Positions 19,208 through 28,882 of a stretch of 58,494 bases of DNA are shown here, piece by piece. The notes under the pieces were generated by a model, which saw only the letters and a list, made by a program, of their open reading frames with translations, did not search any database and was not told where the DNA came from. Both the position numbers and the translations under genes were made by a program. The stretch spans positions 1-58,494 of the forward strand of contig JAMJQL010000040.1 of assembly GCA_023554245.1 (NCBI GenBank). Reading direction: 5' to 3'. Source of the DNA: Gemmatimonadota bacterium. Lineage in GTDB: Bacteria > Gemmatimonadota > Gemmatimonadetes > Palauibacterales > Palauibacteraceae. Within the stretch, counting starts at the first letter, position 1; each line of letters starts with the position of its first letter.

Positions 19208-21712
19208 TCAAGGCTCGAAGGTGACAGTTCTCTCCGATCGGAGAAACGCCGCGTCTTCATCGAGGGGCAGGTCGACGAGCGCGCCGCTGCGCCAGCGCGC
19301 ATTGAGGTCCCTGTAGTGGGGACTCATCGGATTCCCGCTCTGGCCGGTCGGGATCAGGAACCCGGCCCTGATCCCCCGCGGCGATATCTCCGCCACGAAG
19401 CGTTCCGACGGGCCGTACTCGCTGATCCACGGGGGGGTCCACGAGCTTGCGTCGAGTGTCGTCCAGATCCGGTAGTCGTCCGGGCGCAGGGTATCCGGTC
19501 CGCCCTCGGAAGCATAAGGACCCACGTTCAGTCCGAGCGCGCGCTCCAGCCAGTCGACGCTTCCGAGCGGGTGCGCGTGCCGCTCCTCGTGCAGCTCACC
19601 CCAGGACTTCCCATCCGTCACCCGCACGGCATCCCGCATCGCGCGCTCCTCCAGTTCGACGAGGTTCTCGACCCGCGGAGTCGACACGTCGTCGATCCAG
19701 GCACTGCCCTCTTCCAGCGTCCGTAGCACCGCCTCGATCGGAAACAGCGCCCATTCCGGAGCGCTCGCGTATTCATCGGCAGCGATCAGGGTGCGGAGCC
19801 GGTAGAACCAGCTGTAGAACAGCGGCGCCGCTCGCGCATCCTCGCTCACGACCCGATCCCACCCCGACAGCAGCTCCGCCTGATCGGTCAGTCCGAGACG
19901 GCGGGCGGCAGCGACGGAACGATCGATCACCCGATCGGCAAGGAGGCTTCGCGTATCGTGCTGCAGCCGATACGTGCTTTCCAGCGTCCAGTCGCGTCTC
20001 ACCTCCAGCGCCTGGGTGATTCGCAGGGCGCGGAATGGAGGTGCGTAGTCCGAGCTGATCGAGCGCCCGAAGCCCCGAGCCTGAAGGTTGTTGGCTGTCG
20101 CCACGTATCCTCTTCGTGGATCGCGCGCCGCGGGATGCGCATCGGAGGGCCAGAAACCCGGCCAGCCGTCGACGACGGAATCGGACGGCGTCGGCACCGC
20201 CCCGTCACGACCCCCGCGAAGCGGAATCCGGCCTCCGAGGCGGTAGCCGATCGTGCCGTCGCGCGCAGCGTACACGACGTTCTGGTGGGGTCGGGCGAAC
20301 GCCGACACCGCACGGTCCATCGCTGCCGCTCCATCGGCCCGGTTCAGTGCCTGGACGCCCGTGGTGGAGGTCTCGAGGGTGGCCGCCACCCAGAGAACCG
20401 ACAGGTCGGCGCCCAGACCCGACAGGACGTCGCTGATCAGCGGCCCACGCGAGGTAGAGCGGATCCGCATCAGCTCGGGTGCGTCGCGCCCCCTGACCCG
20501 AATCGTATCGATCCGGACATCGAGCTCCCGCCAGCCATCCCCTGCATCACCCGGCTCCCGGTACCGGAGGCCATCATCGGAGAGCCTCTCGATGACGTAG
20601 TCGGTGTCATCCACCATTCCGTTCGTGAATCCCCACGCTACGTAGCGATTGTGGCCGACCACCACGCCCGGTACGCCGGGCAGTGTGAATCCGACCACGT
20701 GCAGCGCGTCGGCTTCCCCGTGCAGGGCAGCCAGGTACCAGAGGGATGGGGCCCGAAGCGCGAGGTGCATGTCGTTGGCGAGGATCGGGTGTCCCGAAGC
20801 GGTGCGATCTCCGGACACGACCCACGCATTCGATCCGGACCGAGCCGATATCGAGCCGAGGACGCGAAAGGGCGACCATCGGTCGGACCCGGCCCGATCC
20901 GCGCCCCCGTCCGTCGTCCCGTAGACCGCCGTGTGATCCGGGAATCGTGAGGCCGGAGCTTCCGAAGCCCGGCTGACGGGTGCCTGCGACGGGGACCCGC
21001 TCGACGGCGGTGACGAGAGCGCACCGGGAGGCGGAGACCACGCCCCATCCAGGATCGTCGGCCCCCACTCCGGATAGCCATCGAGGAGCAGAGCGAAGCG
21101 GGCCGAATCGAGCAGCTGCGAAGCCCGGAACCGCGAGAGCTCGGCTCGCCACACGGCGAGATCCAGGTTCATCACCATGCCGACAGCGAGGGTCGATTCG
21201 ATGCTCCAGGGCTCCGGCTTCAGACGCAGAAGCCAGAATTCGGGCGGCAGCGCCGGGCGTTCGGACAACCGCGCGTTGACTCCCTCCACGTATGCTTCGA
21301 CGCGCAACCGCTCCGGGGGCGACAGAGTCTCGGCCGCCCGTTCCGCGGCTCGCCAGGTGCCGAGGGTGCGGACGAACCGGTCCGTGGCCAGACCGGGCTC
21401 CCCGAACAGCTCGGCGAGCCGGCCCGCAGCGATCCGGCGGAACAACTCCATCTGCCAGAGACGGTCGGTCGCATGCAGGTAACCGAGCGCGCGCAGTGCG
21501 TCGGCCTCGTTCGAAGCGAAGATGTGCGGGATTCCGAAGCTGTCGGCGTGAACCCGGACCGAAGAGGTCAGCCCGGACAGTTCGATCGAGCCGGATGGTG
21601 GCACGGCCGAGCGGGACATCTGAAACCAGATCAGTGTGACAGCCAGTCCCGCCAGCCAGAGTAGACCGCAGACGCCTGCCAGTACGACCCGCCGGATGCT
21701 CGCTCGGCTCAT
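19208..21712 (-). CDS. Penicillin-acylase family (S45) hydrolase
   Basis: An 834-residue Ntn-hydrolase precursor. It has an N-terminal membrane/signal segment (VVLAGVCGLLWLAGLAVTLIWF), the alpha chain with VHADSFGIPHIFASNEADALRALGYLHATDRLWQME, a spacer, then the autoprocessing site GSNAWVVSG where the serine becomes the N-terminal nucleophile of the beta chain. NDMHL and GFTLPGVPGVVVGHN follow as in the family. Family members hydrolyse N-acyl side chains of beta-lactams, acyl-homoserine lactones or other amides; the substrate cannot be told. Likely periplasmic. Its ATG overlaps the upstream STAS gene by 4 bases. Confidence 0.92.
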   Translation of the reverse strand: MSRASIRRVVLAGVCGLLWLAGLAVTLIWFQMSRSAVPPSGSIELSGLTSSVRVHADSFGIPHIFASNEADALRALGYLHATDRLWQMELFRRIAAGRLAELFGEPGLATDRFVRTLGTWRAAERAAETLSPPERLRVEAYVEGVNARLSERPALPPEFWLLRLKPEPWSIESTLAVGMVMNLDLAVWRAELSRFRASQLLDSARFALLLDGYPEWGPTILDGAWSPPPGALSSPPSSGSPSQAPVSRASEAPASRFPDHTAVYGTTDGGADRAGSDRWSPFRVLGSISARSGSNAWVVSGDRTASGHPILANDMHLALRAPSLWYLAALHGEADALHVVGFTLPGVPGVVVGHNRYVAWGFTNGMVDDTDYVIERLSDDGLRYREPGDAGDGWRELDVRIDTIRVRGRDAPELMRIRSTSRGPLISDVLSGLGADLSVLWVAATLETSTTGVQALNRADGAAAMDRAVSAFARPHQNVVYAARDGTIGYRLGGRIPLRGGRDGAVPTPSDSVVDGWPGFWPSDAHPAARDPRRGYVATANNLQARGFGRSISSDYAPPFRALRITQALEVRRDWTLESTYRLQHDTRSLLADRVIDRSVAAARRLGLTDQAELLSGWDRVVSEDARAAPLFYSWFYRLRTLIAADEYASAPEWALFPIEAVLRTLEEGSAWIDDVSTPRVENLVELEERAMRDAVRVTDGKSWGELHEERHAHPLGSVDWLERALGLNVGPYASEGGPDTLRPDDYRIWTTLDASSWTPPWISEYGPSERFVAEISPRGIRAGFLIPTGQSGNPMSPHYRDLNARWRSGALVDLPLDEDAAFLRSERTVTFEP

Positions 21713-22299
21713 CCCTTCGCGTGGGGGATGCGATCGGACGGATTGCTGGCCGACGACGCCGAGAACGAGAGGGACTCGAAGGCGTCACCGTTCCGGCGGA
21801 CCAGGCGCCGGCGCAACAGCCCGGCGAGGAGCGAGGCGCAGGAGCCCGAATCGACACCCAGCCGGCGCGCGAGCTCCTCGGTTCGAACTCGGCCGCAGGC
21901 TGCGAGCATTCGCCATGCGGCGACCGCCTCAGGCTCTACTTCGCCGAGCAGCACCGGCTCGCCACCGATCCGTTCCGCTGAGACGGCGAGACCCCGGCGG
22001 CGCAGAGCTCCTTCCACGGGATCGAGATGGTGTTCCCGGACACCGCGAACCAGCACGAAACGAGGCAACGCATCGCCGGTCTCGCCGGCCGAGCCCATGA
22101 CCAGCTTCGCCACGACTTCGTCGGCGCAGCTGAAGTCGATTACGGCGACATCCCGGAAATCGATCACCGCGATCGTCTCACCCCGCTCCGCCATCAGTCG
22201 CTCGATCCCATCGCGGACGGCGCGACCGGTTTGCCGCGTGACGAGATTGGGCTGGTAGAGGCTCGCGACCGCGATGGCCGGTCCACTCTCGCTGCTCAC
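21709..22299 (-). CDS. STAS-like (DUF4325-type) domain plus winged helix, regulatory protein
   Basis: The 196-residue protein has an N-terminal STAS-like segment: LVTRQTGRAVRDGIERLM then ETIAVIDFRDVAVIDFSCADEVVAKL (residues 42-66), which resembles DUF4325. After a second alpha/beta part, residues about 125-172 form a winged-helix unit (AAWRMLAACGRVRTEELARRLGV, then LLAGLLRRRLVRRNGDAF). The C-terminal 20 residues are serine-rich. It overlaps by 4 bases with both the STAS-HATPase gene before it and the acylase after it. A partner-switch or transcriptional role is inferred; no named orthologue is recognised. Confidence 0.65.
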   Translation of the reverse strand: MSSESGPAIAVASLYQPNLVTRQTGRAVRDGIERLMAERGETIAVIDFRDVAVIDFSCADEVVAKLVMGSAGETGDALPRFVLVRGVREHHLDPVEGALRRRGLAVSAERIGGEPVLLGEVEPEAVAAWRMLAACGRVRTEELARRLGVDSGSCASLLAGLLRRRLVRRNGDAFESLSFSASSASNPSDRIPHAKG

Positions 22300-23198
22300 C
22301 GCACCTCCTCGGTCCGGGCCGGCATCACGATGAGAATCTGTGCACCGGGAAAGGCGGGAAGAGATCTCTGCATCGACGGGTAGTCATCCCAGTCGGGAAC
22401 CAGCGCGATCTGTGCGTCACCACTTCGGATTGCCAGCATTCCGTCCCATTTCTCGACCTGCCTCCGGATCGCCTGGAGCCCCTGGCCCCGACCCGGGTCC
22501 CGGAAGCGCGATTCCCCGTAGAGCAGCGCCGCCTCGAGAGCCATCGCGGCCGACCAGGACTCGCCATAGCGTCGGGCGTGCTCGGAGCCCAGTGATCCCT
22601 CGAATCCCATTCCCACATCCATCACCGCGAGCATCAACACTTCCCGACCCAGCCGCTCGCGGTAGTTGTACGTCTGTGCGCACACCCAGCCGTCGGCATC
22701 CGCGTGCTCGATGATGTTCTGGCATACCTCCGAGAGCATGACGCTGAACTGAATCACCGAGGGCTTCGGGTAGTGAAGCCTCTTCTCCAGAATCGCAGCC
22801 GACCGCTCGCGAACTTTCTCGACGACCGTGTGGACATCGTGGTGCGACCGGATCGGAGTGATCTCGAGAAGCGCGTCGGAGGTCCCGTGCGACGGTGCGC
22901 TGCCCGGTTCCATGTCGAACACATCATGCGCCGCCGGCCAGAATTCCATCCGGTCCAGGTAGCTGCGCACATCCCGATTATCGGGCGCTTCGATGCGGGG
23001 GGAAAGCCCGGTCCGGTCCCGTGAGACCTGAGCCGCGGCAAGCAGACCGATCAGACCGTAGGGCGACACCCAGCGCACGTGCTTGGCGTTGAACAGCAGC
23101 CGGGAAGCCGATGCCTCGGGAAGGCCGCCGAGCGTCGCCACGAGCTCCTCGAAACCCCGATGGTCGAGCACCTCCGGAACCTCGATCACCTTGCTCAC
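22296..23198 (-). CDS. STAS-like domain fused to GHKL/HATPase domain (RsbW-like regulator)
   Basis: 300 residues. The N-terminal 90 look STAS-like (RLLFNAKHVRWVSPYGLIGLLAAA). The C-terminal half is a GHKL ATPase without a histidine-phosphorylation domain: the N box SEVCQNIIEHA at 156-166 has Glu157, Asn161 and His165, the G1 box is DVGMGFEG at 194-201 and the G2 box GRGQGL at 236-241. Such stand-alone ATPases act as anti-sigma or anti-anti-sigma kinases. GTG 23198 is preceded by GGAGAG 7 bases upstream and overlaps the PfkB stop (GTGA). With the next STAS gene it forms a two-protein module; the sigma factor it might act on is not adjacent. Confidence 0.72.
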   Translation of the reverse strand: MSKVIEVPEVLDHRGFEELVATLGGLPEASASRLLFNAKHVRWVSPYGLIGLLAAAQVSRDRTGLSPRIEAPDNRDVRSYLDRMEFWPAAHDVFDMEPGSAPSHGTSDALLEITPIRSHHDVHTVVEKVRERSAAILEKRLHYPKPSVIQFSVMLSEVCQNIIEHADADGWVCAQTYNYRERLGREVLMLAVMDVGMGFEGSLGSEHARRYGESWSAAMALEAALLYGESRFRDPGRGQGLQAIRRQVEKWDGMLAIRSGDAQIALVPDWDDYPSMQRSLPAFPGAQILIVMPARTEEVR

Positions 23199-24160
23199 AC
23201 TGGCTCTCCGGCTCGCATTGTCCGATTCGCTCCTCGCAGCACCTCGACGAGACCCGTTGTACCGCGGTGGCGGGCCGCCACGCCGGCCATGCGATTCGCC
23301 CGTCGGGCGGCTGCGGCTGGCCGATCTCCCTCCAGAAGTGCGGTGGCGCAGACGGCGCCCCACACATCGCCGCAACCCGTGGGGTCGGCGAGCCTCTCGG
23401 GCACCGGCTGAACGGGCTCGGTACCCATCTTCACATCGCCCGCTCCCGACTCGTCGCGGCTCCACCAGCTCGCCCCGCGTGCCCCGCGGGTCACGAACAG
23501 TGCCCTCGGGCCACGTGCCACTGATTCGCTCGCCGCCGTGTCCGGATGATCTCCCTCCGCCGTGAGGGCGGCCAGCTCCTCGTCGTTCATCTGGATCCAA
23601 TCAAAACACTCCCGCCAGGAAGGCCAGGTCGGCAGTGATTGCAGGGTGCGCACCCCGTCGGGACGCACGGCCAGCAGCAGAGAGTGAACGTCTGCATAAA
23701 TCGGCCCCTCCTGAACGACCCGCAGGCTGCGCGCCGCCTCGAGGTCGAGCTCCCAGCCCGCGATGAAGTTCACGATCAGCGCATCGCAGGTCTCCGCAAG
23801 CGGCGCCAGTTCCGTACCACTCCAGCCCGGTACACCGCCCGTCAGCTTTTCGCAACGACGCGGCCCCGAGTGGTAATGGAGATCGACCCGATTGTTCGGC
23901 TCCGGCACCGTGACCACTCCGTCGAGCGACCCGATCCGCGTGAGGCCGCTGAAGAACCTGTCCGCCTGAAGTCTGAGGTCCTCGCCGACCTTTACGATCG
24001 GCAGAATCTCCCATCCTTCCGGGGCCACTGCCTCGAGCGCACAGAGAGAGTAGGCGATTCCCCCCCAGTCCGTGAACGGTTCGGGCGCCTGGCCTTCGTC
24101 CGTACCGGGCCGATGGATCGTGTCGAGAACCAGGGTTCCGAGAACGCCGAGTCGCGACAT
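23195..24160 (-). CDS. PfkB/ribokinase-family sugar kinase
   Basis: 321 residues. It opens SRLGVLGTLVLDTIHRP, has a substrate region FTDWGGIAYSLCALEA, and ends with the PfkB anion-hole and base motif DPTGCGDVWGAVCA (Asp of GCGD is the catalytic base). The exact sugar is unknown. ATG 24160 starts one base after the ROK-kinase stop (TGAGATG), a typical coupled start; an upstream ATG at 24196 would overlap. Neighbouring ROK kinase and family 9 glycosyltransferase suggest a sugar-phosphate pathway feeding the cell envelope, such as heptose or hexose activation. Confidence 0.88.
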   Translation of the reverse strand: MSRLGVLGTLVLDTIHRPGTDEGQAPEPFTDWGGIAYSLCALEAVAPEGWEILPIVKVGEDLRLQADRFFSGLTRIGSLDGVVTVPEPNNRVDLHYHSGPRRCEKLTGGVPGWSGTELAPLAETCDALIVNFIAGWELDLEAARSLRVVQEGPIYADVHSLLLAVRPDGVRTLQSLPTWPSWRECFDWIQMNDEELAALTAEGDHPDTAASESVARGPRALFVTRGARGASWWSRDESGAGDVKMGTEPVQPVPERLADPTGCGDVWGAVCATALLEGDRPAAAARRANRMAGVAARHRGTTGLVEVLRGANRTMRAGEPV

Positions 24161-24161
24161 C

Positions 24162-25154
24162 TCAGAGATCGCCGAACCGTTCCTGGCGGAAGACACAGGC
24201 GGCGCCGATGACGCCTGCCATGCTTCCCAGGTCGCTGGTTACGATCCGGCAGTTGTCCGAGGCGTGACTGAACGCGCGTCGCCGGACTTCCTTCCTGAGT
24301 GGCTCGAGCAGGCGATCGCCTGCCCGGGTGACCCCGCCGGAGATCACCACCATGCCCGGATTGAGGATGTTGATCAGGTTCGCGATTCCGGTCCCGAGGA
24401 ATCTCGCCGTGTCCTTCATCACATCTTTCGCGTATTCGTCTCCGGCGACGATCGCTTCGTACACCGTCTCCGCGGTGATGCGCGCGAGTTCGCCCTCCAC
24501 CATCGAAGGAAGCAGGCTCGGTTCGCCCGACTGCAGACCTTCGATCGCCCGTGCCGCGATCGCCGGCCCCGAAGCGTACGCCTCGAGACAGCCGTAGTTG
24601 CCGCAATTACAGCGACGTCCGGTCGAGTCGATCGTCATGTGCCCCACTTCTCCGGCGACGTCGGAGATCCCGTGAAACACCTTGCCGTCCAGCACGATAC
24701 CGCCCCCGATTCCGGTCCCCAGGGTCACGCCGACCAGCGTGCTGACGTCCTGGCCGGCACCCTGCCACCATTCCCCGAGAGCTGCTGCGTTGGCGTCGTT
24801 GTCCAACTCGGCCTCGAGTCCCACCGCGTTGGAGATCAGGTCCCGAAGCGGAAAATTCCGCCACCCGAGATTGGGCGTGTCGATTACGGTGCCCGTGCGT
24901 CGATCCAGGGGCCCCGGAGAGCCGAGCCCGATACCCACGAACGCCTCTTCCGGAATTCCGGCCTCCATCCGTGCGTCCCGCATCGCGCCGCGGATGAGAT
25001 CGACGATCCGGTCAACGACGTATTTGGGGCCCTTGTCGGCCTCCGTCGGGGCGGATCGCATTGCCAGCACCGGGCCACCGTCGTACGGCACGACGCCCAC
25101 GTTGATCGATGTCCCGCCCAGGTCCACTCCCACGATGTGTCGACCGTCGTTCAC
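24162..25154 (-). CDS. ROK-family glucokinase
   Basis: 330 residues. N-terminal VGVDLGGTSINVGVV phosphate-binding loop, LGSPGPLD, the catalytic Asp in DNDANAAALGE, LGTGIGGGIV, and the ROK zinc motif EVGHMTIDSTGRRCNCGNYGCLEAYAS with Cys-X-Cys-X4-Cys and His. ROK kinases phosphorylate glucose or related hexoses with ATP. GTG 25154 overlaps the GT9 stop (GTGA); an ATG 69 bases upstream would add 23 basic residues inside GT9. Its place between a glycosyltransferase and a PfkB kinase suggests an operon for sugar phosphates. Confidence 0.92.
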   Translation of the reverse strand: MNDGRHIVGVDLGGTSINVGVVPYDGGPVLAMRSAPTEADKGPKYVVDRIVDLIRGAMRDARMEAGIPEEAFVGIGLGSPGPLDRRTGTVIDTPNLGWRNFPLRDLISNAVGLEAELDNDANAAALGEWWQGAGQDVSTLVGVTLGTGIGGGIVLDGKVFHGISDVAGEVGHMTIDSTGRRCNCGNYGCLEAYASGPAIAARAIEGLQSGEPSLLPSMVEGELARITAETVYEAIVAGDEYAKDVMKDTARFLGTGIANLINILNPGMVVISGGVTRAGDRLLEPLRKEVRRRAFSHASDNCRIVTSDLGSMAGVIGAACVFRQERFGDL

Positions 25155-26242
25155 GTCGACGCCTCCTCGAGGCTTGCGAGCGAGGCTTCCAGAACCTCGT
25201 CCACCGTTACGAGTCGGAGGCACTCACGCTCTGCCGACTCCAGGATCGTCCCGCGGCCTCCGCGGGGGCACTCGTTCTTCACGCACGGCACACAGGGAAG
25301 GTCGAATCGTCCGACCAGGCGGACCCGAGTCGCGAGCGGTCTCGTCTGCCGGACGTCCGCAGGCCCTTCCACCGCCACGATCGGGCGATCGAGCGCGGCC
25401 GCTACGTGCATGGGGCCGGTGTCGTTCGTCACCAGAAGATGGCACGCGTCGAGCGCCCCGGCCAACTCCACGAGCGAGGTCCGCCCTCCAAGATCCAGCA
25501 CACTACCCTCGAGCGTCCCGTCGTCCGTCAGAGCCCGACCGACGACCGCCTCCGTGACCGGCCGATCCTCCGGTCCTCCGAGCACGAGAACCCGATGTCC
25601 GAAACCGGCAAGCGACCGCGCGAGCGCTGCATACTTGTCGACGGGCCAGCGTCTGGCCGTACCGTTCGCTCCGGGGAACAGGGCCACGAGCCGGCGCCCG
25701 TCGGGCGGAATCCTCTCGGCGCGTCGACGCTCGCTCCACGCGGCGCGGGCCGCGTCGATCGCCGCCAACCGTGGCGCCGGAGGCTCGCCCTCCGGCACGG
25801 GAAGGTCCGCGATCGCCAGGAATTCCTTGACCCGGTGATCCTCGAGAAGCGGGGCGCGATCCACCACGTCCGTCAGCAGCCAGCCCCGGCCCCCACCCCC
25901 AGTGCCCCGACGCGCAGTGAGGCCCGCAGCACGGAAAATCAGGGCGGAAGATACCGAGGGAGTGAGGAGAATCCCCCTGCGCACGCCGTACGTGCGCAGC
26001 TCGCGTGCGGCCGCCGCGATGTCCCGCCGGTCGGACAGGGGAAGGAGGCGAGCATCGAGATCGGCCATCGCCACCAGCGGCACGAGCCATGAGACGACCT
26101 GCACCACCGGAGCGGTCCCCGTCTCGCGTCGTTCCTTCTCGCACGCGGCCTGCAGCGCCGGAAGGGCCAGAAGCAGCTCGCCGAGGTGGTTCGGCGCTCG
26201 GATCGCCAGTCGCTCGATCGGCGGAGGACCGGCTTTCTTCAC
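25151..26242 (-). CDS. Glycosyltransferase family 9 (heptosyltransferase-type)
   Basis: 363 residues, GT-B fold. It has the N-terminal [18 protein letters not shown], the mid-protein [24 protein letters not shown], and [27 protein letters not shown], the nucleotide-sugar site typical of WaaC/WaaF. The C-terminus carries [13 protein letters not shown], a cysteine cluster common in GT9. GT9 enzymes add heptose to the lipid A core at the inner face of the inner membrane. ATG overlaps the lepA stop (ATGA). Only this transferase of LPS assembly is in the window, so donor and acceptor cannot be named. Confidence 0.87.
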
Positions 26243-28038
26243 TCGCCCACTTGCAGAACGGCGAGGAAAGCCTCCTGCGGAATCTCAACCGAGCCTACCT
26301 GTTTCATCCTGCGCTTTCCTTCCTTCTGCTTCTCGAGCAGCTTCCGCTTTCGCGTGATATCGCCACCGTAACACTTCGCCGTGACGTTCTTGCGCAGTGG
26401 CCGCACTGTTTCCCGGGCGATCACATCCCGCCCGATCGCCGCCTGGATCGCGACCTCGAACTGCTGACGCGGAATCAGCTCCTTGAGCTTGCGTGCGACC
26501 TTACGGCCGTATTCGTAGGCACGATCCCTGTGAACGATCACGCTGAGCGCATCTACCGGGTCGCCGTTCAGCAGGATATCCAGCTTCACGAGGTCGGACT
26601 CCCGGTAGCCGGCGAGCTCGTAGTCAAGCGCCGCGTAACCTCGGGACACCGTCTTCAGCCTGTCATAGAAGTCGAGCACGATCTCGGCGAGCGGAATGTC
26701 GTAGCGGATTTCCACCCGGTTCGCGTCCAGGTAGTGGAGGCCGACATACTCTCCGCGTCGCTCGTGACACAGCCCCTGAATGCCGCCGATGTAGTCCGAC
26801 GGGGTCACCATGTGAATCCGCACGTAGGGCTCTTCGACTCGCTCGATCACCCCCCGCTCGGGCATCTTGCTGGGGTTCTCGACCGAAACCGCCTCGCCGT
26901 TCGTCAGGGTGACCTGGTACTCCACGTTTGGAATCGTGGTGACTAGGTCCAGGTCGGCCTCGCGTTCGAGGCGTTCCTGAACGATTTCCATGTGCAGGAG
27001 GCCCAGGAATCCGCAGCGGAATCCGAAACCGAGCGCCTGAGATGTCTCCGGCTCGTAGTGCAGGCTGGCGTCGTTGAGCTGCAGACGGCCGAGGGCATCG
27101 CGCAGCTCCTCGAACTGGTCGGAATCGGAGGGATACAGGCCCGCGAACACTACCGGCTTCGCCTCCTGGTACCCGGGAAGCAATTCCGTTGCGCGCCGGT
27201 CTGCATCCAGGATCGTGTCTCCGACCTTGGTATCGGAGATGTTCTTGATCTGTGCCGTGAGATAACCGACCTCCCCGGTCGACAGCACCTCGGCAGGCCG
27301 ATACCCGAGACGCAGGAACCCTACCTCATCCACCTCGTAGACCGCATCGGCCTTCCCGAATCCGATCGTCTGGCCCGGACGTATCTCTCCATCCACCACT
27401 CGGATGAACGGAACGGCACCCCTGTACTTGTCGTACATCGAATCGAAAATCAGGGCCCGAAGCGGCGCCTCCGGATCCCCCTCCGGCGGAGGCACCCTCG
27501 CGACGATCGCCTCGAGTACCTCATCGATACCGGTGCCCTCCTTCGCCGAAGCGAACAGCACTTCCTCCGGATCGATTCCCATCAGGTCGCATACTTCGTC
27601 CCGTCGCCTCTCGGGCTCCGCGGCGGGCAGGTCGATCTTGTTGATGACCGGGATGATCTCGAGGCCCGCATTGATCGCGAGAAACAGGTTCGAGATCGTC
27701 TGAGCCTCGATGCCCTGCGTCGCGTCCACCACGAGAAGGGCGCCCTCGCAGGCTTCCAGGCTCCGGCTGACCTCGTAGGTGAAGTCGACGTGGCCGGGGG
27801 TGTCGATCAGATTCAGCTCGTATTCGTGCCCGTCGCCGGCTCGATAGGGCATGCGGATCGCGTTGAGCTTTATCGTGATTCCCCGCTCTCGCTCGAGATC
27901 CATCGAGTCTAGGATCTGCTCCTTCATCTTCCGCTGCTCCACGGCGCCCGTGCGCTCGAGGAGGCGATCGGCGAGCGTGGACTTCCCGTGGTCGATATGC
28001 GCCACGATCGAGAAGTTACGAATCGAGTCTATGGTCAA
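26239..28038 (-). CDS. lepA: Elongation factor 4 (LepA)
   Basis: LepA is a ribosome-associated GTPase that back-translocates or helps translation initiation under stress. The 599-residue product has G1 [10 protein letters not shown]2 [10 protein letters not shown]3 DTPGHVDF, G4 NKIDLP and G5 [10 protein letters not shown], then EF-G-like domains and the LepA-specific C-terminal domain ending [31 protein letters not shown]. The start is TTG 28038 (MTIDSIRNF), preceded by GAGG; this matches the usual LepA N-terminus and length. It heads the long downstream operon and has its own promoter at 28077-28105. Confidence 0.97.
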
Positions 28039-28076
28039 GCGGGCCTCTGGCGATTCGGCGTTTTCGCGGGAGCGCG

Positions 28077-28105
28077 AATATAGAGGCGCCCCCGGTCCGT
28101 CACAA
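28077..28105 (-). promoter_or_regulatory. Promoter upstream of lepA
   Basis: Minus-strand -35 TTGTGA (28100-28105), 17-base spacer, -10 TATATT (28077-28082), 39 bases before the TTG start. It lies in the 67-base gap after the MBL gene and touches its stop codon. The match is close to consensus and unusual for this GC-rich DNA. Confidence 0.65.
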
Positions 28106-28882
28106 TCAGAAATCCAGTTCCAGTCCGTCGTACGCCGCTTCGACCCCGGCGGGCAGAGAACGTTCGAGTCGGGGGTGGTCCAGCCGGTGCGTGAGGTGCG
28201 TGAGAAGCGCCCGTTCCGGCGCCACCCGCTCGACCACCTCGAGCGCCTCCTCGACGTTGAAATGTGTGGGGTGAGGCGAACCGTACCAGAGGGCGTTGAG
28301 CACCAGGATTCGGCTCCCGGTGAGCAACTCCCAGGCGTCGTCGGGCACCCGTTTGGCATCGACGATCAGCGACAGGTCCCCGCAGCGAAAACCGTAGCTG
28401 GTGAACGCACCGTGCGGATAGCCGATCACGCTCAGGTCGAACCCGGCAGCGTCGATCCGCTCCCGGTCCCGGAACGGAATCGGGTCGAGCCCGGGCACGA
28501 CGGTTCCCGGCTGAATCGTGGGATCCGGTCCGAGAAAGTACGGGAATCGGCCGCGCACCTCGGCCTCGTGCTCCGCAGCGATCCAGAGAGGGATCGGATC
28601 GGCGCCCCGTCCCGAGAAGGCTCGCAGATCGTCGATTCCATGCAGGTGGTCGGCGTGCGGGTGGGTCAGGAACACGCCGTCGAGACTGTCCACCCCCGCG
28701 GCGACGAGTTGCAGACGCAGTTCCGGCGGGGTGTCCACCAGAAGCCGCCTGCGCCCCTCTTCGAGGAGAAGGCCATGCCGGGTCCGCCGGTTCCGGGGAT
28801 CCGGAGAGGTGCAAACGCCACAGCTGCAGCCGATCACCGGCACTCCGAACGACGTCCCCGTCCCGAGAAAGCGAAGCTTCAC
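28106..28882 (-). CDS. MBL-fold hydrolase, PhnP-like
   Basis: 258 residues. It starts [19 protein letters not shown] with a cysteine cluster CSCGVC typical of PhnP-type proteins, then LVDTPPELR, the metal motif [10 protein letters not shown] (HxHxDH), a mid-protein histidine in IGYPHGA, and the distal TLHLT-type site [12 protein letters not shown]. PhnP hydrolyses cyclic phosphodiesters; others in this subgroup act on cyclic nucleotides or lipoate. The cluster does not show a phn pathway, so the substrate is open. It lies 21 bases after pyk. Confidence 0.87.

Follow-up and report, generated by a model that had tools for sequence, protein, structure and literature searches.

Two adjacent genes on the minus strand of a 58,494-nucleotide stretch of DNA from a Gemmatimonadota bacterium (family Palauibacteraceae; assembly GCA_023554245.1, contig JAMJQL010000040.1, positions 1 to 58,494; hereafter the window), part of a draft genome of 2.93 Mb, encode a protein that joins a STAS domain to a GHKL ATPase (the kinase) and a protein that joins a STAS domain to a winged helix (the partner). 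Here we compare this pair with the CapK/CapS switch of anti-phage operons. The minus-strand genes follow one another in the order lepA, glycosyltransferase-like gene, ROK kinase, PfkB kinase, STAS-HATPase gene, STAS-winged-helix gene and acylase. The open reading frames (ORFs) of the pair lie where the initial annotation had placed them and overlap by 4 bases (22296-22299), and the coupling it had described to the flanking genes holds as well, with overlaps of 4 bases between PfkB and the kinase (23195-23198) and between the partner and the acylase (21709-21712). The pair is laid out as follows:

22296..23198, minus strand: STAS plus GHKL ATPase (CapK-like kinase), 300 amino acids, GTG start
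22908..23198, minus strand: STAS domain of the kinase, residues 1-97
22308..22883, minus strand: GHKL ATPase domain of the kinase, residues 106-297
22704..22733, minus strand: N box of the kinase, SEVCQNIIEH, residues 156-165
21709..22299, minus strand: STAS plus winged helix partner (CapS-like), 196 amino acids, GTG start
21943..22284, minus strand: STAS domain of the partner (DUF4325-like), residues 6-119
22117..22137, minus strand: partner motif DFSCADE, residues 55-61, whose Ser57 aligns with the CapS phosphoserine
21757..21942, minus strand: MarR-like winged helix of the partner, residues 120-181

Domains of the kinase and its partner

Taken alone, the kinase and partner of the window score below the curated Pfam cut-offs, and the domains were therefore assigned through orthologues. 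HATPase_c matches all 39 of 39 kinase orthologues and HATPase_c_2 matches 37 of them (expect value E≤0.1, the window kinase itself falling below the curated cut-off), while STAS_2 matches 8 of 39. A profile of 55 kinase orthologues recovers the solved STAS protein 4hyl over residues 3-89 (E 0.0016), SpoIIAA 1auz (E 0.48) and the GHKL domain of CheA over residues 181-259 (E about 0.3). In the AlphaFold2 model, built from 55 sequences with a mean predicted local distance difference test score (pLDDT) of 91.4, residues 107-296 superpose on SpoIIAB 1til_E (Z 14.1, root-mean-square deviation (rmsd) 2.5 over 133 aligned residues) and residues 1-97 on the STAS domain 1vc1 (Z 10.2). No phosphoacceptor-histidine family in Pfam matches the kinase, and NCBIfam places it in no family. 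Orthologue matches, profile and predicted fold thus bear out the initial description of a STAS protein with a GHKL ATPase and no phosphoacceptor-histidine domain.

Conservation was read from two row sets for each protein, of 39 and 55 rows for the kinase and of 39 and 59 for the partner; both sets contain the window and share some genomes, and so are not independent. In all 94 kinase rows nine residues (Glu157, Asn161, His165, Asp194, Gly196, Gly198, Arg237, Gly238 and Gly240) are unchanged, and the N box and glycine motifs are invariant except at Gly236 (93 of 94). One could suppose that the kinase has no catalytic activity, or does no more than bind nucleotide, and that the pair is a structural complex; catalysis is only predicted for these proteins, but the invariance of nine catalytic-domain residues from Glu157 to Gly240 leaves us giving this idea very little credence. 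The STAS domain of the kinase carries proline (Pro46) in all 94 rows at the site of the SpoIIAA phosphoserine, which makes that domain unlikely to be a phosphorylation substrate itself.

The predicted fold also agrees with the STAS and winged-helix parts initially assigned to the partner. Its AlphaFold2 model (59 sequences, mean pLDDT 92.2) superposes on the STAS proteins RsbS 6jhk (Z 10.3) and SpoIIAA 1til_B (Z 9.6), and its wing domain, residues 120-178, on the MarR-type structure 4yif (Z 10.1, rmsd 0.9, 59 aligned). Pfam matches among the 39 partner orthologues are scattered, with DUF5817_CT in 6, DUF4325 in 5 and several winged-helix families in fewer than 5 each, among them MarR_2 in 4. 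The likeness to the STAS-like DUF4325 proteins (PF14213) consists of those five orthologues and a weak match of the window partner, which at 13.5 bits stays below the gathering cut-off of 23 and differs from that family in bearing a wing domain. On a Novosphingobium plasmid, the partner adjoining a GHKL gene is a clear PF14213 member (50.9 bits); a PF14213 search of the window's own genome returned nothing at E≤1. For the partner NCBIfam gave only a chance-level family, and a PDB sequence search with alignment A3 gave no match at E≤1. The top Foldseek match of the partner, the CRISPR regulator Csa3 (E 6e-6), was set aside as a common two-part layout with a wing domain (TM 0.29, rmsd 12).

Kinship with CapK and CapS

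CapK and CapS are described, in a report of June 2026, as a DNA-damage switch for anti-phage operons, in which CapK has the layout helix-turn-helix (HTH)-STAS-GHKL and CapS the layout STAS-winged HTH (wHTH) (PMC13373217). CapK, activated by single-stranded DNA (ssDNA), phosphorylates Ser54 of CapS, whereupon the CapS dimer breaks up and comes off the DNA, which lifts the repression of the immune operon downstream; activation by ssDNA runs through an aromatic residue (W68 in CapK, F54 in VapK), and removal of the N-terminal HTH from CapK is without effect. A toxin-antitoxin relative, VapK/VapS/VapC, has as its VapS a STAS domain with a short C-terminal region that inhibits VapC. The same report provides CapS structures (9z71, 9z72 and 9z73) and a Vap structure (9z7o).

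The homology of the window kinase to this family is statistically supported. Among the 12 records that it retrieves by tblastn at E≤10, of which those at E about 1 were treated as chance, are proteins encoded on plasmids of Nostoc (E 2e-11), Cytobacillus (E 9e-6) and Acinetobacter (E 4e-5), and in each of these plasmids the gene after the kinase encodes a STAS-wHTH-like protein. The phmmer matches of the Acinetobacter partner (1.5e-40 to 9z72, 7.5e-36 to 9z71) identify it as an authentic CapS. After the Cytobacillus pair come ThiF and DUF6527 genes, in our reading a Bub/Bil-type defence operon. Compared as profiles by hhalign, the window kinase matches the Acinetobacter CapK at 97.7% probability (E 1.9e-12), against 26.9% (E 6.8e-4) for the RsbW-type kinase of its own genome. 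Over STAS domain and wing together, the partner profile aligns with the CapS-like protein of Cytobacillus at 94% (E 1.4e-7); by BLASTP the window partner finds the Nostoc partner at E 2e-5 and the Cytobacillus protein only at E 0.03.

The switch residues also correspond. CapS carries the motif DSSF in 9z71 and DAAF in the S58A structure 9z72, and the window has D55-F56-S57-C58 at this place, so that Ser57 aligns with the second serine of DSSF. That this second serine is the phosphosite is deduced from S54, N145 and K151, which fit the printed CapS chain at a common offset of two. Position 57 is serine in all partner rows but one (39 of 39 and 58 of 59), and Asp55, Ala59, Asp60 and Glu61 are invariant in both sets. 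The one departing partner, at L149 7939-8568, reads DYACADE, a possible loss of phospho-control. Residue 16 of the kinase, a possible counterpart of CapK W68, is phenylalanine in 31 rows of the 39-row set and in 26 of the 55-row set.

In its layout, its switch residues and the homology of its kinase the Gemmatimonadota pair thus resembles CapKS: a kinase gene followed directly by a STAS-wHTH partner, a STAS-GHKL core with its active-site asparagine, a MarR/ArsR-like wing and a serine at the equal place in the partner STAS domain. It departs from CapK/CapS in two features, since the window kinase begins with its STAS domain and has no N-terminal HTH, and the pair does not stand beside immune genes. 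The pair instead lies in a lepA-ROK-PfkB block, downstream of those genes rather than at the head of a regulated operon, and is apparently inherited vertically across the phylum; the DNA-contacting asparagine of CapS is not kept in the window, and the wing is partly lost in one clade. PADLOC run on ten window proteins gave only two matches, DrmA (to the kinase itself) and PDC-M28B (to an Mrp-like protein). The likeness to VapK/VapS/VapC lies in the STAS-GHKL kinase and STAS partner, and the short-tailed partners of family f3 resemble the VapS layout, but most Gemmatimonadota partners carry a full wing domain; we noticed no VapC/PIN gene next to the pair in the regions read, no search having been dedicated to one. 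A search of the accessible literature on CapKS/STAS pairs and Gemmatimonadota found no Gemmatimonadota or core version, and the accessible part of PMC13373217 mentions none.

Beyond these plasmids, viral contigs searched with alignment A1 gave 41 pattern matches, none of them a relative. Gene 32 of Gordonia phage Phishy (L241 2911-3762), carries a histidine kinase annotation and is similar to the window kinase along 89% of its length (25.9%, E 6e-7); it sits between tail and integrase genes and is followed by a gene for a 75-amino-acid protein. GHKL-like proteins on Rhizobium and Planctomyces plasmids (L237, L238) lie beside or near DUF4417 genes, their match to the window kinase being at chance level (E about 1).

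A different role, that of an RsbW/SpoIIAB-type anti-sigma factor from which the partner, as antagonist, would release a sigma factor, has to be weighed against this kinship. The pair does share a GHKL domain and a STAS protein with SpoIIAB/SpoIIAA and RsbW/RsbV, the folds superpose (SpoIIAB being the best superposition of the GHKL domain, at Z 14.1), and SpoIIE-family phosphatase matches exist elsewhere in the genome, on contig C130 and, weakly, on C143. However, the kinase carries its own STAS domain with proline at the phosphosite, the partner carries a wing domain, and the kinase resembles CapK far more closely than it does the RsbW-type protein of the genome. No sigma factor and no PP2C or other phosphatase gene was noticed beside the pair, sigma factors not having been searched for. 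Contig C130 (L211 2506-5288) holds a separate unit that we read, from sequence together with family matches, as a canonical partner switch, in which the genes for a DSSG-bearing RsbV-like STAS protein, for a HATPase protein that begins with a receiver-like part and for a SpoIIE phosphatase are chained. With such a unit in the genome, a classical anti-sigma role for the pair is less needed, and we regard it as improbable; a repressor released by phosphorylation is more likely than classical partner switching.

Distribution, linkage and gene neighbourhood

The pair is near-universal in the sampled Gemmatimonadota, and its association is not one of chance. The kinase is found in 280 of 298 sampled genomes (E≤1e-5), as is the partner (280 of 298, E≤0.01). 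Both genes are absent from 16 genomes, ten within the class and six of family f11, the only ones outside it. One gene is missing in four more, and these cases look like assembly breaks because the genes sit at contig ends or in pieces: in G297 and G272 the partner begins at bases 1 and 53 of its contig, and in G232 and G270 the kinase reaches the contig end or lies there in pieces. The relatives retrieved with a name are Gemmatimonadota.

Conserved linkage of the two genes, which the initial annotation had proposed as a check, proves very strong: the partner is adjacent to the kinase and co-oriented in 60 of 60 loci read in detail, picked for spread over genera, and in 80 of 80 named loci, which overlap the genomes behind the 60. 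The gap between the genes measures -20 to +70 bases in 56 of the 60 loci, by our choice of start, and 121, 518, 1059 and 1334 bases in the others. In seven loci (L080, L093, L100, L146, L156, L167 and L186) a gene that we read from its sequence as a cyclophilin-type peptidyl-prolyl isomerase stands between the pair genes, and such an insert occurs in all seven examined loci with an intergenic gap of about 500 bases or more. In a tree of 61 kinases each of seven sampled families falls on one side of a branch, with 6 changes (the minimum) against a mean of 36.7 after shuffling, family f5 being weakly supported; this separation of families fits vertical inheritance of the pair within the phylum.

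The genes around the pair in the window are these:

26239..28359, minus strand: lepA ORF, head of the conserved block, its start probably further in
24162..25223, minus strand: ROK-family (glucokinase-like) gene, overlapping PfkB
23195..24196, minus strand: PfkB-family sugar kinase, directly upstream of the pair
19208..21712, minus strand: penicillin-amidase-family acylase, coupled downstream of the pair and lineage-specific

The names lepA and glycosyltransferase are our reading of the sequence. Across loci the recurring neighbours are lepA, ROK, PfkB and a pyridoxal-phosphate (PLP) enzyme; the counts come from a re-analysis, the first clustering having been spoilt by antisense ORFs in GC-rich DNA. 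Where the 60-locus set offers enough upstream sequence, PfkB stands beside the pair in 52 of 57 loci, ROK lies upstream in 51 of 57, ROK, PfkB and the pair occur all four in order in 49 of 57, and lepA lies upstream in 46 of 53; downstream, a PLP-enzyme-like gene is found in 37 of 60 loci and an acylase in 7 of 60. The 80-locus set gives PfkB in 62 of 70, ROK in 52 of 66, all four in 50 of 66 and lepA in 56 of 59. A promoter scan returned a single site (28105-28077, minus strand), which does not rise above shuffled sequence.

The placement of the pair in a sugar-kinase operon, as first proposed, stands for the window, yet across the phylum the link is common rather than strict. Some pairs have no PfkB beside them, and a search for PfkB in 22 genomes, of which 20 lack one or both pair genes and two possess the pair, gave a match at 1e-10 in 10. 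In family f9, G097 and G177 retain ROK and PfkB, and the stretches read contain no trace of the pair; in G097 a PLP enzyme directly follows PfkB. In G253 PfkB is kept and is followed by an Mrp-type gene. Because pairs occur without the sugar kinases and the sugar kinases without the pair, these genes are frequent neighbours and not obligate partners. PfkB was also considered as the sole phosphofructokinase (PFK) of the window's genome and rejected, as two other PFK-family genes lie elsewhere in it; a PDB search with the window PfkB protein gave nothing at 1e-5. In two genomes, one single-contig and one draft, PfkB is matched in two pieces, as if frameshifted (L214 and L223 of G125; L219 and L224 of G264).

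Output of the pair and its meaning

We propose, at a probability of roughly 0.6, that the pair is a CapK/CapS-like kinase-substrate pair fixed in the Gemmatimonadota chromosome, acting in the lineage of the window as a kinase-controlled repressor. From our own data the proposal draws on linkage, predicted folds, CapKS-type homology, the invariance of the catalytic asparagine, the near-invariance of the partner serine and the lack of a phosphosite in the kinase STAS domain; phosphorylation of the partner, breakage of its dimer and release from DNA are modelled on CapKS. Its steps would run as follows:

(i) The STAS-GHKL kinase would bind ATP and be the point at which a signal acts, candidate signals being ssDNA, by analogy with CapKS, and carbon state, as the gene neighbourhood suggests.

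(ii) The unphosphorylated partner would be a dimer joined through its STAS face, and in the window's genome its winged helix would bind DNA; the simplest role is that of a repressor, whose targets may include its own operon.

(iii) The kinase would phosphorylate Ser57, located where helix 2 begins in the STAS domain of the partner, and phosphorylation would break the dimer and release it from DNA.

The partner-switching unit with direct DNA-binding output that had first been suggested survives in part, and for the window largely. A kinase-controlled winged-helix protein is the best reading, given the layout, the serine aligned with the CapS phosphosite and the CapKS precedent; strictly speaking, the breakage of a dimer, as in CapKS, does not count as partner switching, and partial loss of the wing in one f3 clade means that a DNA output is not universal.

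Several observations weigh against this proposal. Compared directly with authentic CapS, the partner profile gives a weak match (5.4%, E 0.0072), and to 9z71 it reaches E 0.3 over the wing part only; a match of alignment A5 to CapS (1e-16) is partly circular, A5 holding authentic CapS, and was not counted as independent. One of 59 partner orthologues has alanine at Ser57. The wing has a mean pairwise identity of 0.26 and 0.27, compared with 0.49 and 0.51 for the STAS domain, and the asparagine with which CapS contacts DNA is, by our reading of the alignments, absent from the window partner. The wing is on average slightly acidic (-0.64 and -1.03), a property we rejected as a sign of DNA binding, as true CapS also scores -1. 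No operator palindrome common to relatives was found in the 300 bases before lepA (14 f1 rows of 108 extracted); exact 7+7 inverted repeats occur in 3 of the 14 rows, two of them close relatives, and lepA seems coupled to an upstream gene in several.

A further observation concerns family f3, in which one clade has lost the first half of the wing. The aligned sets have a median of 124 residues after the serine motif; among 20 further f3 loci this tail measures 80-83 residues in 12 and 113-117 in 7, and the last is interrupted by the contig end. The cut is also seen in L096 and L116 of the 39-locus set, L115 having a similarly short ORF (partners with a cut wing: L096, L116, L242-L251, L253 and L259). 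L096, L116 and L115 form one supported clade in the kinase tree, and a single loss is therefore likely among them. By element order in the model, the cut partners keep one helix and the wing hairpin, so that direct DNA binding cannot be the output shared by all members unless the stump binds.

A VapS-like output at the level of protein is the main rival, above all for the f3 clade, though we rate it as rather unlikely. It holds that the STAS face of the unphosphorylated partner, with the C-terminal part as an arm, would hold another protein, for example an operon product such as PfkB, the ROK kinase or LepA, and that phosphorylation would release it, the winged helix being protein-binding or vestigial. 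It can draw on the precedent of VapS, whose STAS domain and short C-terminal region inhibit VapC (PMC13373217), on a STAS domain far better conserved than the wing, on the persistence of STAS domain and kinase in f3 where the wing is reduced to one helix and a hairpin (12 of 20 loci), and on the frequency of PfkB and ROK as operon mates. Yet the wing of the window partner is complete and superposes closely on MarR-type domains, and pairs without PfkB or ROK, together with ROK-PfkB genes without the pair (G097 and G177 of f9), show that neither is an obligate partner. For the window partner, then, the modelled wing makes direct DNA binding plausible.

If the proposed repressor is correct, the CapKS mechanism, published in 2026, would move from defence operons to housekeeping. 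We consider it a tentative possibility, somewhat unlikely as a whole, that the CapKS-type pair is an old, fixed regulator of the phylum coupled to sugar-kinase and translation-factor genes, and that the stump-wing clade now controls a protein and not DNA; the pair would then be a signalling chassis of general use that gave rise to the immune version, or that itself arose from it. That clade is in any case a natural experiment on what a STAS partner controls. Gemmatimonadota is a phylum with few genetic tools, and the pair, present in more than 90% of its sampled genomes, offers a candidate for a core signalling switch, one that the near-invariant serine and invariant asparagine make directly testable.

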